Assembly (NCBI RefSeq): GCF_001662305.1
Contig: NZ_BDEP01000007.1
Coordinates: 62,001 to 126,000, forward strand
Length of the DNA: 64,000 bases
Origin: Halomonas caseinilytica
Lineage (GTDB): Bacteria; Pseudomonadota; Gammaproteobacteria; Pseudomonadales; Halomonadaceae
Direction of reading: 5' to 3'
Shown here: piece by piece, positions 11,866-60,607 of the stretch
Layout: each line of letters starts with the position of its first letter
Numbering within the stretch: position 1 is the stretch's first letter
Program-made: the position numbers and the translations under genes
Notes under the pieces: generated by a model
Told to the model about the DNA's origin: nothing
The model's input: only the letters and a program-made list of their open reading frames with translations
The model's database searches: none

Positions 11866-13569
11866 TCAGAACAGGTGATAACGCTGCGCCAGCGGCAGCT
11901 CGCTGGCCGGCTCGCAGGTCAGCAGCTCGCCGTCACAACGCACCTCATAGGTCTGGGGATCGACCTTCAGGTCGGGGCAGGCGTCGTTGAGCTTCATGTC
12001 AGCCTTGCGCACGCCGCGCACGTGGCGACAGGCGGAAAGCTCGCTGGCCAGCCCCAGCCTTTCCTTGATCCCGGCGTCCAGGGCCGCCTGACTGACGAAC
12101 GACAGGCGCGTGCGGCTCGCTGCCCGCCCCAGCGCACCGAACATCGGTCGGTAATGCACCGGCTGAGGCGTGGGAATGGACCCATTGGGGTCGCCCATGG
12201 GGGCCAGAGCGATCATGCCTCCCTTGAGAACCAGCGCTGGCTTGACGCCGAAGAAGGCAGGGTCCCACAGCACCAGGTCGGCCAGCTTGCCGACCTCTAC
12301 CGAGCCCACCTCGTGGGCAATGCCATGCGTCAATGCCGGATTGATGGTGGTCTTGGCGATATAGCGGCGAGCGCGAAAGTTGTCGGCACCGCGCTTGGCA
12401 TCCTCTGACAGCAGGCCACGCTGAACCTTCATCTTGTGCGCGGTCTGCCAGGTCCGGCAGATCACCTCGCCGACCCGTCCCATGGCCTGGGCATCCGAGG
12501 CGATCATGGAAATCACGCCCATATCCTGAAGGATATCCTCGGCGGCGATGGTCTCGCGCCGGATGCGCGAGTCGGCGAAGGCCACGTCCTCGGGGATCGA
12601 CGGATCCAAGTGATGGCACACCATCAGCATGTCCAAGTGCTCGTCGATGGTGTTCACCGTGTAGGGCCGGGTCGGGTTGGTGGAAGACGGCAGGACATGG
12701 TCGAGGGCGCAGGCGGTGAGGATATCCGGTGCGTGCCCGCCCCCAGCGCCTTCGGTGTGGTAGGTGTGGATACCGCGCCCCCGGAAGGCGGCGAGTGTAT
12801 CCTCGACGAAGCCCGATTCGTTCAGGGTATCGGTATGGATGGCGATCTGGACGTCGAAGCGCTCGGCCACGCTCAGGCAGTTGTCGATGGATGCCGGTGT
12901 GGTGCCCCAGTCCTCGTGCAGCTTGAGCCCCATGGCGCCCGCCTCGATCTGGGCGTCGAGCGACTCGGGCAGACTGGCATTGCCCTTGCCGAGCAGGCCG
13001 ATGTTCATCGGTAACTCATCCACGGCCTGGAGCATCCGGCCGATGTGCCAGGCGCCTGGGGTGCAGGTCGTGGCATTGGAGCCAGTAGCCGGTCCCGTGC
13101 CACCTCCCAGCATGGTGGTCACACCGCTGGACAGCGCCTCCTCCACTTGCTGTGGGCAGATGAAGTGCACGTGTGAATCGATGTGACCGGCGGTGAGGAT
13201 CTTGCCCTCGCCGGCGATGATCTCGGTACCGGGACCAATGACGATCTGCACATCGGGTTGGGTATCGGGATTGCCGGCCTTGCCGATGGCGGCGATGCGT
13301 CCGCCCTTGAGTCCCACATCGGCCTTGACGATGCCCCACCAATCGAGGATCAGCGCATTGGTGATCACGGTATCCATCACCGCATCGTCATGGCGCTGGC
13401 TCTGGCCCATGCCATCGCGAATCACCTTGCCACCGCCGAACTTCACCTCGTCTCCATAGTGGGTGGCATCGCTTTCCACCTCGATCCACAGCTCGGTATC
13501 ACCGAGTCGTACCCGATCCCCCGTCGTCGGTCCGTACATATCGGCATAGGCTTGCCGGCTTATCTTCAT
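11866..13569 (-). CDS. ureC: urease alpha subunit
   Basis: The catalytic subunit hydrolyses urea to ammonia and carbamate at a di-nickel centre. All ligands are present with a shift of one from Klebsiella numbering: His133 and His135 (DSHVH), carbamylated Lys216 (GLKLHEDWG), His245 ([10 protein letters not shown]), His271, Asp359 (ASDAQAMGR); the flap Cys318 and His319 sit in MVCHHL. Length 567 is standard. ATGA overlap with ureB shows coupling. Confidence 0.97.
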
Positions 13570-18294: not shown

Positions 18295-19896
18295 TCAGCC
18301 CTCCGCTGCCCGGCCCTTCTGCGGAAAGAGTCCGCGGGGGCGCTTCTGGATGAACAGGATGATGAACACGAGCACCACGATCTTGGCCAGCACCGCACCA
18401 GCCCAGGGCTCGAGGACCTGGTTGATGACGCCCAGCGACAGGCCGGCCACCAGGGTTCCCCAGAGATTCCCCACACCGCCGAACACCACCACCATGAAGG
18501 AGTCGATGATGTAGTTCTGGCCAAGGTTGGGGCCAACGTTGGTGAGCTGCGAGAGCGCCACCCCGGCCAGTCCCGCCACCCCGGAGCCCAGGGCGAAGGT
18601 CAGGATGTCCACTCGAGTGGCGCGGATGCCCATGGCGCGTGCCATGCTGCGGTTCTGGGTCACCGCCCGCACCTCCAGGCCCAGGCGGGTACGTCGCATC
18701 ACCAGCATCAGGACGGCGAACACCACCAGAGCGAAGCCCAGCACATAGAGGCGATTGAGAGTCAGCGAAAGACCCTCGTTGAGCATCAGCGAGCCGCTCA
18801 TCCACTCCGGCGTGACCACGGTACGGTTCTGCGGCGAGATCACCGTGCGCACCAGTTGTTGCAGGATCAGGCTGACACCAAAGGTGGCCAGCAGGGTCTC
18901 CAGCGGTCGTCCCTTGAGGAACTGGATGACACCTCGCTCGATGACCACTCCCGCCAGTGCCGCCACCAGAAAGCCAGCGGGAATCGACAGCAACAGCGCC
19001 AAGCCGGGCTGGCCGGGCAACAGTTGCTGCATGGCCCAGGTGGTGTAGGCACCGAGCATTATCAGCTCGCCATGGGCCATGTTGATCACCCCCATGACAC
19101 CGAAGGTGATCGCCAGGCCGATGGCCGCCAGCACCAGAACCGAGCCCAGAGAGAGGCCAAAGTAGAGCGTCTCCAGGCCCCGGTTGAGCGCCATCTTCTG
19201 CTCGATATCGGCCATGGCCGAGGTCGCGGCAGCGGCAAGCTCGGCATCCTCGCTGCGGCTGGCGGCATTCAGCGCCGAGCGTACCTGGGCATTGAGGCTG
19301 CCGCTCAAGGTCTCCACCGCTTCGACCTCGCCCGCTTCCAGGCGCTGAATGGACAGGGCCTGCTCGAGCAGGCGACGCACCTCGGCGTCCTCTTCACCGT
19401 CGATGACCGCCCGGATTGGCTCGACCAGGCCGGCATCGACAGCGCCAAGCAGCGCTCTGGCCGCCTCGCGACGCTCGGCGACCTCATCGGCATGCAGGTC
19501 GAGCACCGCCAACGCGCCCTGCAACTGGCCGCGCAGGGCATTGTTGATGCCGATGCGGTCAAGATCGCGGCGCGACATCTCGCCGGCGTCCTCGAAGCTC
19601 AGCGCATCGACCACCGGCCAGTTGCGGCCGCGATTCTCGACGACCACGACGAAACGGCCGGTGTTCTTGTGGCGCTGCAGCTGGCCGCCGAGCAGCGCCT
19701 CGAGCCAGCGGCGACTGCGCGCGTCGCCGCTTTCGATGATGGCCTCGATCGCCTCGCCCTTCTCGGCGTAGGAGGCGGTAGCGAGGGGATCCAGCAAAGC
19801 CTGGCCGGGATCGTCCTGCGCCTGAACAGCCAGCGGCAGGCCGCACAGCAGGCACAGGCACAGCAGGCCTGACAGGAAGCGTGGGAGCATCCTCAT
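18295..19896 (-). CDS. urtB: urea ABC transporter permease UrtB
   Basis: LivH-type permease with a long non-permease N-terminus, as is usual for UrtB. Start ATG 19896 has AGGA seven bases upstream; a second ATG lies at 19890. A signal peptide (FLSGLLCLCLLCGLPLAVQA) precedes about 200 polar residues predicted to be periplasmic. The permease domain then starts near residue 245, with LAITFGVMGVINMAHGELIMLGAY as its landmark (in part). Total 533 residues. The gap to urtA (253 bases) contains a structured repeat. Confidence 0.94.
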   Translation of the reverse strand: MRMLPRFLSGLLCLCLLCGLPLAVQAQDDPGQALLDPLATASYAEKGEAIEAIIESGDARSRRWLEALLGGQLQRHKNTGRFVVVVENRGRNWPVVDALSFEDAGEMSRRDLDRIGINNALRGQLQGALAVLDLHADEVAERREAARALLGAVDAGLVEPIRAVIDGEEDAEVRRLLEQALSIQRLEAGEVEAVETLSGSLNAQVRSALNAASRSEDAELAAAATSAMADIEQKMALNRGLETLYFGLSLGSVLVLAAIGLAITFGVMGVINMAHGELIMLGAYTTWAMQQLLPGQPGLALLLSIPAGFLVAALAGVVIERGVIQFLKGRPLETLLATFGVSLILQQLVRTVISPQNRTVVTPEWMSGSLMLNEGLSLTLNRLYVLGFALVVFAVLMLVMRRTRLGLEVRAVTQNRSMARAMGIRATRVDILTFALGSGVAGLAGVALSQLTNVGPNLGQNYIIDSFMVVVFGGVGNLWGTLVAGLSLGVINQVLEPWAGAVLAKIVVLVFIILFIQKRPRGLFPQKGRAAEG

Positions 19897-19989
19897 GGGC
19901 GTGTCCTGTATGAAGCAGGGAGATGACATGATCCATCGGACCGGCGTTCGCCAAGGCAATCGCTGTTGCCCGCAGCAAGGGGCGCCAGG

Positions 19990-20074
19990 GACAAGCCGAA
20001 GAGGAGGTCCGACGTCATGGATGACGTCGGTAGCGCCCAGGGATGGGTTCACAGCGCCTCCTCGCAGGCTTGTC
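19990..20074 (+). repeat. structured dispersed repeat, copy 1
   Basis: An 85-nt element in the urtA-urtB gap. GACAAGCC (19990-19997) pairs with GGCTTGTC (20067-20074). GAGGAGG (20001-20007) pairs with CCTCCTC (20057-20063). Inside is a hairpin CCGACGTCA (20009-20017) / TGACGTCGG (20022-20030), then CCCA/TGGG flanking a short loop. Copy 2 on the minus strand at 59797-59879 has the same layout and about 85 percent identity over the core by eye. Two pairs change in a compensatory way. Confidence 0.8.
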
Positions 20075-20149
20075 GACGGAACAGCCCCGAGCTACCGCGT
20101 TCTTCGATAGTCCAGGGTGTAGCCGGCCCTGTGGCAGTGACGAGGCTGA

Positions 20150-21472
20150 TTACTCCTGGGATGCCTCTTCCTCGGCCTGGCTGCCGCCGCAGCTACCGCG
20201 CACCACGTTGTAGTTGCCGCATTCCATGGGCTTGCGCCAGTCGCTGATCAGGTCCCTGGAGCCATCCAGATAGTCGGACCAGGCGTCGCCGGCCACGGTG
20301 GAAGGCGTCTTCCAGACGACGGAGAACTGGCCATTGTCCTGGATCTCGCCGATCAGCACCGGCTTGGTGATGTGGTGGTTGGGCATCATCGTCGCGTAGC
20401 CGCCCGAGAGGTTGGGCACCGAGACACCGACGATGGCCTCCTTGACCGCGTCCACCTCGGTGGTGCCTGCCTTGCGCACCGCCTCGGTCCACATGTTGAA
20501 GCCAATGTAGTGCGCTTCCATGGGATCGTTGGTCACCGCCATCTCGTCGCCGGTGTGCTCTATCCAGGCGTCGATGAAGTCGTAGTTGGCCTCGGTATCG
20601 ACGCTCATGAAGTAGTTCCAGGCGGCCAGATGGCCGACCAGCGGGCCGGTGTCGATGCCGGTGAGCTCCTGCTCGCCCACCGAGAAGGCGACGACCGGGA
20701 TGTCGGCGGCATCAATGCCCTGATTGCCAAGCTCGCGGTAGAATGGCACGTTGGCATCGCCGTTGATGGTGGAAACCACCGCGGTCTTTCTGCCCTCACT
20801 GCCGAAGGCCTTGATCTCGGAGACGATGTTCTGCCAGTCCGAGTGTCCGAAGGGCGTGTAGTTGACCATGATGTCCTCGTCGGATACGCCGAATTCGTTC
20901 TTCAGATAGGCCTCGAGGATCTTGTTGGTGGTACGCGGATAGACGTAGTCGGTGCCGGCCAGCACCCAGCGCTCGACGCCGACCTGATCATGCAGGTAAT
21001 TGACAGCAGGAATCGCCTGCTGGTTGGGCGCCGCCCCCGTGTAGAAAACGTTCTCGGAAGATTCCTCGCCCTCGTACTGCACCGGATAGAAGAGCAGGCC
21101 GTTGAGCTCCTCGACTACCGGTAGCACCGACTTGCGCGACACCGACGTCCAATTGCCGAAGATGACGTCAACCTTCTCCTGAGCGAGCAGTTCGCGGGCC
21201 TTCTCGGCAAACAGCGGCCAGTCGGAGGCGGGATCGACCACTACCGCTTCCAGTTCACGGCCCAGCAGGCCACCTTCCGCATTCTGCTGCTCGATCAGCA
21301 TCTCCACGGTGTCCTTGAGCACCGTTTCGCTGATCGCCATGGTGCCGGACAGGGAATGCAGGATGCCCACCTTGATGGGATCTTCCTCCGCCAGGGCAGG
21401 TGTGGCGACGGCCAGGTTCAATAATGGAGCGGCCAGCCAGTGAGGTCGCATGGCGGGACGACGTGAGGTCAT
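20150..21472 (-). CDS. urtA: urea ABC transporter substrate-binding protein UrtA
   Basis: Periplasmic urea-binding protein, 440 residues. The start at ATG 21472 follows AAGGAG by six bases. A signal peptide ends near ATPALA (about residue 28), then EEDPIKVGILHSLSGTMAISE. Family segments FGNWTSVSRKSVLPVVEE and LFYPVQYEGEESSENVFYTGA are present. The C-terminus carries a Cys pair (MECGNYNVVRGSCGG) seen in relatives, and an acidic tail. It is the first gene of the urt operon, behind a sigma-54 type promoter. Confidence 0.96.
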   Translation of the reverse strand: MTSRRPAMRPHWLAAPLLNLAVATPALAEEDPIKVGILHSLSGTMAISETVLKDTVEMLIEQQNAEGGLLGRELEAVVVDPASDWPLFAEKARELLAQEKVDVIFGNWTSVSRKSVLPVVEELNGLLFYPVQYEGEESSENVFYTGAAPNQQAIPAVNYLHDQVGVERWVLAGTDYVYPRTTNKILEAYLKNEFGVSDEDIMVNYTPFGHSDWQNIVSEIKAFGSEGRKTAVVSTINGDANVPFYRELGNQGIDAADIPVVAFSVGEQELTGIDTGPLVGHLAAWNYFMSVDTEANYDFIDAWIEHTGDEMAVTNDPMEAHYIGFNMWTEAVRKAGTTEVDAVKEAIVGVSVPNLSGGYATMMPNHHITKPVLIGEIQDNGQFSVVWKTPSTVAGDAWSDYLDGSRDLISDWRKPMECGNYNVVRGSCGGSQAEEEASQE

Positions 21473-21562
21473 GGTGATCTCCTTGCGATCCGGATCATTG
21501 TTATCGGAAGTCAGTGATCGACAGTCAGGGCATGCGCCGAGCGCACCCTGCCCGCAATCCTT

Positions 21563-21578
21563 TGCAAGGGTCGCGCCA
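21563..21578 (-). promoter_or_regulatory. sigma-54 type -24/-12 promoter before urtA
   Basis: Minus-strand TGGCGCGACCCTTGCA matches TGGCRCG-N4-TTGCW fully, with GG (21577-21576) and GC (21565-21564) ten bases apart. Predicted start is near 21552. Confidence 0.8.
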
Positions 21579-21716
21579 GAATCACCTTTCATGTGATTAT
21601 TGCTTTGATGTCAGGCCAATAGCGCGTCTCGCCACCTATCGCATCTTCTCGATGTGCTGCCTTGGTGCAGTCAACGAGCGGCCATTGCCTCGAATCAGTG
21701 CCCACATCGTCCGCTC

Positions 21717-58678: not shown

Positions 58679-59758
58679 CTACGGCGTCTCGAAGGCTGCC
58701 AGCACGGCATCGCCCATCTCGGCGGTCGACACCGCGCGCTCGCCTTCGGCGGCGATATCGGCGGTTCTAAGGCCATCATCCAGCACCTTGCCGACAGCGG
58801 CTTCGATACGCTCGGCCAGCGCCGGCTCGCCCAGCGAATAGCGCAACATCATGGCCACGGAGAGAATGGTCGCCAGGGGGTTCGCCAGTCCCTGGCCGGC
58901 GATGTCCGGCGCGCTGCCGTGGCAGGGCTCGTACATGCCCTGCCCGCTCTCGTTGAGTGACGCCGAGGGCAGCATGCCGATCGACCCTGTCAGCATGGCC
59001 GCGGCATCGGAGAGGATGTCGCCGAACATGTTGCCGGTGACCACCACGTCGAACTGCTTGGGCGCGCGGACCAGTTGCATGGCAGCATTGTCGACGTACA
59101 TGTGCGACAACTCGACGTCCGGATATTCCGGCGCCAGGCGCTCCATGACCTCGCGCCACAGCATGGTCACCTCGAGCACGTTGGCCTTGTCGACCGAACA
59201 CAGTTTCTTGCCGCGTTTCCGGGCCATCTCGAAGGCCATGCGACCGATGCGCTCGATCTCGGCTTCGGCGTAGACATAGGTGTTGTAGCCCACCCGCTGG
59301 CCGTTGCGCTCCTCGATGCCGCGCGGCTGACCGAAGTAGATGCCACCGGTCAGCTCGCGCACGATCATGATGTCGAGGCCGGCGACCAGCTCGGGCTTGA
59401 GACTCGAGGCCCCGGCCAGCTGCGGATAGAGCAGCGCCGGTCGCAGGTTGCCGAACAGGCCGAGCTCCTTGCGCAGGCCCAGCAGGCCCTTCTCGGGACG
59501 CTTGCTGATGTCCTCGAGCTTGTCCCACTTGGGACCGCCCACGGCCCCGAGCAGCACGGCATCGGCGGCCTTGGCCCTAGTCAGAGTGCCTTCCGGCAGC
59601 GGCGAGCCCTCGAGATCATAAGCGGCACCGCCAACCGGCGCCTCTTCCACCTCGACATCCAATCCCTGCGCCTGGCAGGCGGCCAGCACCCGGCTGGCCT
59701 GGGCGGTGATCTCCGGGCCAATGCCATCGCCCGGGAGAACCAGAATCTTGCGTGTCAT
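58679..59758 (-). CDS. leuB: 3-isopropylmalate dehydrogenase
   Basis: Oxidative decarboxylation in leucine synthesis. 359 residues from ATG 59758 (AAGGAA upstream). [29 protein letters not shown] and [15 protein letters not shown] (metal/substrate) and [15 protein letters not shown] (cofactor) are intact. The gap to leuD (204 bases) contains copy 2 of the structured repeat. Confidence 0.97.
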
Positions 59759-59796
59759 CGTGTTTTCCTTGTTGAGTGGGCGGAGCTGATTCGGCG

Positions 59797-59879
59797 GCAG
59801 GCCGTCGAGGAGGCGCTGTAAACCCATCCGTGGGCGCTACCGACGCCATCCCTGGCGTCGGACCTCCTCTCCGGCCTGC
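59797..59879 (-). repeat. structured dispersed repeat, copy 2
   Basis: Minus-strand element in the leuD-leuB gap. On the plus strand GCAGGCCG (59797-59804) pairs with CGGCCTGC (59872-59879). Inside is the hairpin CCGACGCCA / TGGCGTCGG (59840-59861). It matches copy 1 in layout and length; see 19990-20074. Confidence 0.8.
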
Positions 59880-59962
59880 TCCCGACGCTCCGCTGCCATA
59901 TGCGTTGAGAAGCCGACCCTGATCGGCACCGGCCGTTAAGGCGGAGCGCCTCTCTTGCCGAT

Positions 59963-60607
59963 TCAGGCTTCCCGAAACAGCCAGGGGCGCTCCGCCCTGT
60001 GCCGTTTTTCGAACGCATGGATGGCGTCTTCGTCCTGCAGGGTGATGCCGATGTCGTCGAGTCCTTCGAGCAGGCAGTGCTTGCGAAAGGCATCCACTTC
60101 AAACTCGAGCACCTCTCCCGACGGTGTAATGACGCGCTGCTGCTCCAGATCCACGTCGAGGCGATAGCCCTCGTTCGCCGCCACTTCCTCGAACAACCGG
60201 TCGACCTCGGCCTCGGAAAGCTTGATCAGCAGGATGCCGTTCTTGAAGGCGTTGTTGTAGAAGATGTCGGCGAAACTCGGGGCAATCACCACCCGGAAGC
60301 CATAATCGGCCAACGCCCAGGGCGCATGCTCGCGGGAGCTGCCGCAACCGAAGTTCTGGCGCGCCAGCAGGATGCTCGCCCCCTGGTAACGAGGCTGATT
60401 GAGCACGAAGTCCGGGTTGAGCGGACGCCCCGAGACGTCCTGGCCGGGCTGACCTTCGTCGAGGTAGCGCAGCTCATCGAACAGGTTGACGCCAAAGCCG
60501 CTGCGCTTGATCGACTTCAGGAACTGCTTGGGAATGATCAGGTCGGTGTCGACGTTGGCGCGATCCAGCGGCGCAACAAGGCCGTCGAGACGTTCGAATT
60601 TCTGCAT
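59963..60607 (-). CDS. leuD: 3-isopropylmalate dehydratase small subunit
   Basis: Small subunit of the LeuCD isomerase, 214 residues. Family motifs [32 protein letters not shown] (in part) and [15 protein letters not shown] are present. Four bases after the leuC stop region, so co-translated. Confidence 0.97.

Follow-up and report, generated by a model that had tools for sequence, protein, structure and literature searches.

Related hairpin repeats and RNAs

At malE-malF, a classical intercistronic REP follows a binding-protein gene, and its hairpin protects the upstream message. CsrB and RsmZ are single genes whose RNAs carry many GGA motifs in hairpin loops (about 18 in CsrB). In Rfam, clan CL00106 holds CsrB together with the orphan family TwoAYGGAY (RF01731), whose connection with CsrA was reportedly proposed by Gardner and Eldai. 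According to that proposal, made in 2014 from motif matches, TwoAYGGAY binds CsrA (PMC4333381). The YPAL/RU-2 repeats of Yersinia are intergenic palindromes present in tens of copies (PMC2759123, PMC2229807), which are described as mobile, with target duplications, as inserting at sites of dyad symmetry and as having a possible influence on upstream transcripts (PMC2229807). The Yersinia sRNA Ysr224 (RF02770) is given as temperature responsive in a review.

The stretch analyzed here, called the window, comprises 64,000 nucleotides of Halomonas caseinilytica (contig NZ_BDEP01000007.1) and holds two copies of a dispersed hairpin of about 110 bases, in which a long stem ends in a three-way junction that bears two hairpins. 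The element shares with YPAL the intergenic position, the palindromic form and the presence in tens of copies, and it matches the YPAL/RU-2 core of two GGA hairpins followed by TTTACGGCG; the alignable part consists of hairpin 1 CAAGGATG, hairpin 2 CATGGATG and then TTTACGGCGTC. In local alignments with YPAL, five of six elements outscored every one of 300 shuffles, among them copy 2 (41; best shuffle, 24), a distant-family copy (52; best shuffle, 23) and, narrowly, copy 1 (25; best shuffle, 24). The sixth element, L084, did not (20; best shuffle, 25), nor did any reverse-strand comparison. However, YPAL is 167 to 168 bp long and has target duplications of 3 to 26 bp, whereas the element has 111 nt and a different outer stem; an extended form of about 175 nt comes near the size of YPAL, but through an insert in hairpin 1.

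With TwoAYGGAY, the element has in common the two GGA-loop hairpins on a long external stem. One distant-family copy, L082, passes the TwoAYGGAY gathering score (43.5 against 43); the home-genome copies tested stay below the threshold of 43 (L009, 25.1 bits, E = 8.1), neither window copy gives a match at E up to 10, and none of 18 named non-Halomonas loci passes the threshold. The loops of the element read ANGGAW, not AYGGAY, with loop 2 mostly AGGGAW. The whole Ysr224 model matches copy 2 (28.5 bits, E = 6.8e-5 in a search of 191 nt), but on the opposite strand and far under the gathering score of 70, and copy 1 reaches merely 13.6 bits. Different from CsrB and RsmZ, with which it shares GGA motifs in hairpin loops, the element is dispersed and has two such loops, or three when extended. 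Dispersed intergenic palindromes are also found in the REP/BIME and ERIC sequences, and non-Halomonas copies of the element often form back-to-back doublets; REP units, however, measure 20 to 40 bp against 111 nt, the element has no tie to RAYT genes in the genus, and ERIC is likened here by description rather than by sequence comparison.

On these comparisons, the element looks like a Halomonas-type version of the known, poorly understood YPAL and TwoAYGGAY elements, and a single core fold and loop motif link this abundant Halomonas repeat to YPAL and to the orphan Rfam family. A literature search, thin on subscription journals, returned no paper joining YPAL with CsrA. The earlier reading of the window, made from the sequence alone, made no mention of two CsrA-type loops or of a relation to YPAL or TwoAYGGAY.

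Extent and fold of the window copies

Copies 1 and 2 form a gap-free alignment of 111 nt, in which the stretches 19979-20089 and 59781-59891 are 82% complementary (Table 1). The sequence-only reading had described an 85-nt element and a minus-strand counterpart aligning over their full length; its positions and alignment are correct, but the unit is longer, the 85 nt being the inner part. Both compensatory changes that it had quoted, one in the inner pair and one in the outer stem, are present in the sequence.

Table 1. Parts of the two copies and adjacent genes, in window coordinates
Feature	Positions	Strand	Basis or remark
Copy 1, whole 111-nt element, urtA-urtB gap	19979-20089	+	GGA strand antisense to urt operon
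Copy 1, outer stem, 5' arm, pairs with 20067-20074	19990-19997	+	Helix 2, covariation alignment
Copy 1, inner stem GAGGAGGT, 5' arm, pairs with 20056-20063	20001-20008	+	Helix 3, covariation alignment
Copy 1, hairpin 1; loop CATGGATG at 20016-20023, CsrA-type CANGGANG	20009-20030	+	Folding, motif scan, covariation
Copy 1, hairpin 2; loop CAGGGATG at 20038-20045, GGA 22 nt from hairpin-1 GGA	20036-20047	+	
Copy 1, conserved unpaired TTCACAGC from hairpin 2 to closing stem	20048-20055	+	Column conservation
Copy 1, inner stem, 3' arm	20056-20063	+	Covariation alignment
Copy 1, outer stem, 3' arm	20067-20074	+	Covariation alignment
Copy 2, whole element, leuD-leuB gap	59781-59891	-	GGA strand sense; 22 nt before leuB start used
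Copy 2, hairpin-1 loop CAGGGATG	59847-59854	-	
Copy 2, hairpin-2 loop CACGGATG	59825-59832	-	
urtA, urea ABC transporter substrate-binding protein	20150-21592	-	NCBIfam; stop 60 nt from copy 1; putative start
urtB, urea ABC transporter permease	18295-19896	-	NCBIfam; start taken at 19896
leuD, upstream of copy 2	59963-60607	-	NCBIfam
leuB, downstream of copy 2	58679-59758	-	NCBIfam; start taken at ATG 59758

Folding z-scores were -5.5 for copy 1 and -6.5 for copy 2, and none of 200 shuffles folded equally well. The 24-nt core pattern, with up to three mismatches, occurs twice in the window against 0.00 occurrences expected from shuffles, and a covariance model built from 18 home copies found, with filters off, the two copies only (127.0 and 123.5 bits), the best window match outside them scoring 13.3 bits. 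A chance origin is ruled out by the folding z-scores, the core-pattern shuffles and the covariation shuffles given below.

No sigma-70-like promoter was found around either window copy. An intrinsic terminator was discarded for copy 1, near which no T-tailed terminator was found, and for the copies in named genomes, which have no T-run after the 3' arm and no clear A-run before the 5' arm. As a separate observation, no stop codon interrupts the leuB frame as far upstream as the ATG at 59827 (minus strand), which lies inside hairpin 2 of copy 2, and in 8 of 40 sense Halomonadaceae copies the downstream frame is open to the ATG of the hairpin-2 GGATG (offset -46 or -47); this ATG may serve as an alternative start, for example of leuB, or the open frame may be due to chance.

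Copy number, covariation and taxonomic spread

Combining BLAST with the covariance model, we located about 28 element places in the home genome, namely, 26 model matches at E up to 0.02 and two extended copies found by BLAST only; two more model matches represent the opposite strand of copies already counted. Nineteen home copies score at least 70 bits, and several of the rest are partial or degenerate. In the alignment of 18 home copies, 92.6% of the cells are paired and 21 of the 34 pairs show double changes, compared with 79.7% and 12.9 pairs in shuffles, and pairing falls to 34 to 47% when the partners are slid. On four of the five covariation measures, none of 500 shuffles reached these values; on the fifth, further pair types, 39 of 500 did. 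Across 98 distinct Halomonadaceae copies, in an alignment that was fitted to the covariance model and is hence biased toward its fold, 96.6% of the cells are paired, 29 of the 34 pairs show double changes and no shuffle of 500 reaches any of the five measures. The claim of the sequence-only reading that the fold is kept beyond the sequence is strongly supported by the covariation in both sets. Moreover, the covariance-model search that it had proposed for this genome and related Halomonas found neither a restriction to two copies nor broken stems, but many copies whose stems are preserved by paired changes.

The element was present in 34 of 37 genomes of the same genus, the home genome included, with per-genome counts that are lower bounds, and, beyond its own family, in 5 of 21 genomes of the order. 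A scan of named bacterial genomes for the core pattern gave at least 119 stretches, and those listed fall in Halomonas and relatives, Stenotrophomonas, Xanthomonas, Shewanella, Marinobacter, Microbulbifer, Rheinheimera, Methylotuvimicrobium and others. With the model built from home copies only, 117 matches at E up to 0.01 were obtained in 90 loci outside Halomonas and relatives, a status judged from record titles; 82 of these matches have E below 1e-6, and one is the opposite strand of another. Such matches support common descent but are not independent proof of it, since the 90 loci had been selected by the core pattern. Genomes chosen without the core pattern, and therefore free of that selection bias, also match, with E values down to 5.7e-10.

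The non-Halomonas copies set the same capped core on long stems, with a median of 29 pairs between the aligned arms and 88% Watson-Crick identity; 6 of the 121 named copies have no arm in an alignment that penalizes all mismatches equally. The outer-stem sequence is mostly copy specific (82 of 109 stems are non-redundant at the threshold used), while the copies seen in genome G051 share one stem.

Doublets within 400 nt outside Halomonas are mostly arranged back to back, with their 5' ends facing. The 116 matches in named loci (including L164, L176, L217 and L248) yielded 19 doublets of the minus-plus type, 3 of the plus-minus type and 3 on the same strand; the 105 matches in five distant genomes yielded 11, 0 and 1, respectively, all in three genomes (G041, G039 and G046). 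No doublet within 400 nt was found in the eight Halomonadaceae loci holding two copies.

Mismatches in the stems and the putative functional strand

A stem that is kept at the RNA level is expected to tolerate G-U, but not A-C, mismatches on the functional strand, whereas in a stem kept at the DNA level both should be equally frequent. In the outer stems of the 121 named copies, with all mismatches penalized alike, we counted 110 G-U against 48 A-C (P = 9e-7) on the GGA strand, and 11 against 5 in the ten pairs nearest the core. The 82 non-redundant stems, in which kinship is only partly corrected for, have 96 G-U against 45 A-C (P = 2e-5), 45 copies being richer in G-U and 11 in A-C. The Halomonadaceae stems show 51 G-U against 25 A-C, with one fixed U-G pair left out; the 18 home copies taken alone have no bias (12 against 13). 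The flanks of the GGA strand have no excess of T over A or of G over C downstream, and little upstream, and since flank composition shows no such skew, a simple C-to-T bias is not an obvious cause of the G-U excess. The tolerance of G-U above A-C on the GGA strand suggests a functional RNA, against which it must be set that Ysr224 matches the opposite strand.

Loop motifs and CsrA

Both loops keep the CsrA/RsmA-type motif CANGGANG, described as the Rsm motif (PMC6849547), while the stems vary in compensating pairs. Hairpin 1 lay outside the search pattern, and its GGA was thus not preselected; nevertheless, of 118 copies examined, 117 folded and 100 of these have GGA at its apex, 83 of them as ANGGA, compared with 3 of 117 on the opposite strand. 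In the 98 Halomonadaceae copies, both loops read ANGGA, with A, G, G and A fixed at 96 to 100% and N variable, most commonly T in loop 1 (51%) and G in loop 2 (80%). A conserved unpaired stretch, TTYACRGC, is also among the features of the element. The motif CANGGATG is not enriched across the window (15 found against 17 expected).

Counted from start to start, 89 of 99 copies have their two GGAs 22 nt apart (19 nt lie between), and in 101 of 111 named copies the distance is 22 to 24 nt. This spacing falls inside the range reported for the bridging of two sites by CsrA, namely, 10 to 63 nt with an optimum above 18 nt (PMC7652899). The GGA hexaloops of the element agree both with CANGGANG and with the SELEX consensus RUACARGGAUGU, which is described as occurring mostly in hexaloops (PMC7652899). 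Very stable stems are rare among the SELEX ligands of CsrA, and hairpin 1 of the element has 8 to 9 pairs. The home genome has one csrA gene, which encodes L4 and R44.

Gene context and the urt and leu loci

Gene context was counted for 72 of the 99 Halomonadaceae matches, a set without the orthologous urt and leu copies and without several copies that were extended or had low scores, with an ORF caller that had been trained on urtA, urtB, leuD and leuB and that places both window copies correctly. The 70 usable copies comprise 40 in tandem sense, 24 in tandem antisense, 3 convergent and 3 divergent positions; the element lies at a median of 34 nt past the upstream stop, and 39 of the 64 tandem copies are within 0 to 40 nt of it. 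In the set from named genomes, where a poorer ORF caller makes the numbers rough, 56 usable copies are divided into 19 sense, 19 antisense, 14 convergent and 4 divergent, and the context in other genera may differ from that in Halomonadaceae. In 31 copies from two distant genomes, the GGA strand points with its 3' end toward an ORF, but this orientation rule fails in the wider sample and in Halomonas and was dropped.

In the best 30 of 61 genomes, the urtA-urtB gap holds the element in 7 cases, antisense in the home genome and sense in the other six; the remaining 23 gaps have no intact core, and in one of them the core is deleted between preserved arms. As its other option, the sequence-only reading had named a structured RNA that may affect urtA-urtB expression. 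Copy 1 is inverted, and therefore its stretch of the urt mRNA does not contain the GGA loops, which is the main point against a role of CsrA at the urtA-urtB locus itself. As an arrangement, the urtA-urtB case resembles the intercistronic REP of malE-malF. The leuD-leuB gap, again in the best 30 of 61 genomes, has the element in 26 cases (18 sense and 8 antisense), and the other four gaps (L306, L307, L310 and L311) contain different repeats, for example, tandem GGCTTAC or GGGCTAC units.

Probable traces of mobility

The presence or absence of copies among relatives, together with one apparent insertion into a hairpin loop, supports past mobility, the direction of gain or loss being read from the majority state. 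In particular, the extended home copies C30:43017 and C4:205441 are absent in all relatives that could be aligned, five at each locus out of 12 genomes searched. Of the relatives aligned at C4:209016, three have no copy, and in G017 the copy has undergone a small deletion. At C30:39666, the hairpin-1 loop of one relative is the exact site of an additional branched insert, with a CATGGATG hairpin of its own; another relative has the outer arms only, another a plain copy and two lack the whole stretch. In the urtA-urtB gap of G033, the element interrupts a plain hairpin like that seen 3' of urtA in G006, as though it had inserted into the loop; a second locus also fits hairpin-loop insertion in a suggestive way, making two cases in all. 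The direct repeats at the window copies are imperfect, with no clear target duplication, and the empty sites found in relatives show no clean one. The sequence-only reading had offered a non-autonomous mobile element of REP or MITE type: presence and absence between relatives bears this out in the YPAL/MITE sense, and the distribution of Y1 proteins, considered below, speaks against the REP/RAYT sense.

BLAST with copy 1 matched 1 of 72,556 plasmid records (a 1.83-Mb replicon, at four places) and none of 50,697 phage records, and the exact core pattern gave two stretches in viral contigs. Plasmid and phage records are thus almost devoid of the Halomonas form, and phage or plasmid cargo was rejected, with the proviso that diverged copies could escape such searches.

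The extended form of about 175 nt (L021, L012, L022, L025/L026, L263 and L324) is abundant in relatives; a branched insert in hairpin 1 brings in an additional GGA hairpin, which is mostly CATGGATG-like. At L265 and L326, the core is deleted and the outer arms are preserved, a possible scar of hairpin-mediated deletion.

Proposed role and alternative explanations

It is possible to hypothesize, with slightly better than even confidence, that the Halomonas element belongs with YPAL/RU-2 in one dispersed hairpin family of many Gammaproteobacteria, resembling TwoAYGGAY, which spread in the past and acts in mRNA as a barrier or processing site and as a docking place for CsrA. Its copies would formerly have spread by a mechanism favoring sites of dyad symmetry, such as terminator hairpins. 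An element in sense orientation would be carried within the operon mRNA, where the long stem could form an intercistronic barrier or a processing site, the two loops may hold one CsrA dimer, and CsrA could tune the stability or the translation of the neighboring cistrons; copy 1, antisense to urt, would add a hairpin alone to the urt mRNA. What the data show is the family with its fold, loops, loop spacing, gene position and variation between relatives; transcription within operon mRNA, the route of spread, CsrA binding and effects on urt and leu expression are what we infer. Against the operon reading stand the antisense orientation of copy 1 to its operon and that of 24 of the 64 tandem-gene copies.

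A purely selfish element of the MITE or YPAL kind, recognized by a transposase as folded single-stranded DNA and devoid of RNA function and of any role for CsrA, is a possible, if unlikely, account: it draws on the presence and absence between relatives, the two orientations at orthologous loci, the insert nested in the hairpin-1 loop and the described mobility of YPAL with target duplications (PMC2229807), while the one-strand bias for G-U over A-C, the fit of the loops to CANGGANG down to the variable N, the scarcity of plasmid and phage matches and the lack of a clear target duplication at the window copies argue against it. Mobilization as a REP element by a RAYT (Y1) transposase seems highly improbable, even with a palindromic, intergenic and multicopy unit, a GTAG that Halomonas copies have at the base of hairpin 2, and Y1 matches in all five distant-family genomes that bear the element. 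The home genome has no Y1_Tnp, and 16 of the 34 element-bearing genomes of the genus have no Y1 match at E up to 0.001 (some are drafts, in which a single absence is not proof), including genomes with up to 45 listed copies, while one element-free genome does have a Y1 match; besides, the unit measures 111 nt, not 20 to 40 nt, and GTAG is usually replaced by GAG or AAG outside Halomonas. Since, within the genus, the occurrence of Y1 transposases does not follow that of the element, RAYT was discarded as the driving force.

That the hairpin acts solely as a barrier at mRNA 3' ends or as a partial terminator, in the way of the malE-malF REP and irrespective of its sequence and orientation, is an explanation that we doubt. 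A plain GC-rich hairpin does occupy element-free urtA-urtB gaps (G006, G061 and G069), other repeats replace the element in 4 of 30 leuD-leuB gaps, copies lie shortly after stop codons and both orientations occur at one locus; but such a hairpin leaves the loop sequences, their spacing and the unpaired TTYACRGC unexplained, and no T-run follows the stem, nor does a T-tailed terminator lie around copy 1. We think it quite improbable that the compensating changes reflect palindrome correction by template switching during replication rather than selection. The prevalence of double changes with few intermediates, and the long and mostly locus-specific stems of other genera, would suit such a process, which, however, predicts equal numbers of G-U and A-C, in disagreement with the larger samples, and is unable to fix loop sequences.

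Should the reading as an mRNA hairpin that docks CsrA be true, a dispersed repeat would constitute a widespread route for bringing operons under CsrA. Halomonas offers tens of natural copies, and orthologous loci at which the element is inverted, deleted or absent amount to ready-made mutants. A broader conjecture, which we rate as rather unlikely, would unite YPAL, TwoAYGGAY, Ysr224 and the Halomonas repeat in one gammaproteobacteria-wide class of mobile CsrA-docking RNAs, which would insert into hairpin loops between cistrons or in terminators, thereby gain locus-specific long stems, put tens of operons per genome under CsrA and jointly buffer free CsrA.

Other observations

A Xanthomonas locus (L171:3650-3860, minus strand) gave a weak match to the Yersinia sRNA Ysr141 (31.9 bits, where the threshold is 196), and it may be that Ysr141, like Ysr224, represents repeat elements filed as sRNAs. 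Within the window, positions 13137 to 13422 (plus strand) match the Rfam family 5_ureB_sRNA (RF02514) above its threshold, at 103.7 bits; the match possibly lies within or opposite a urease gene rather than marking a separate sRNA.
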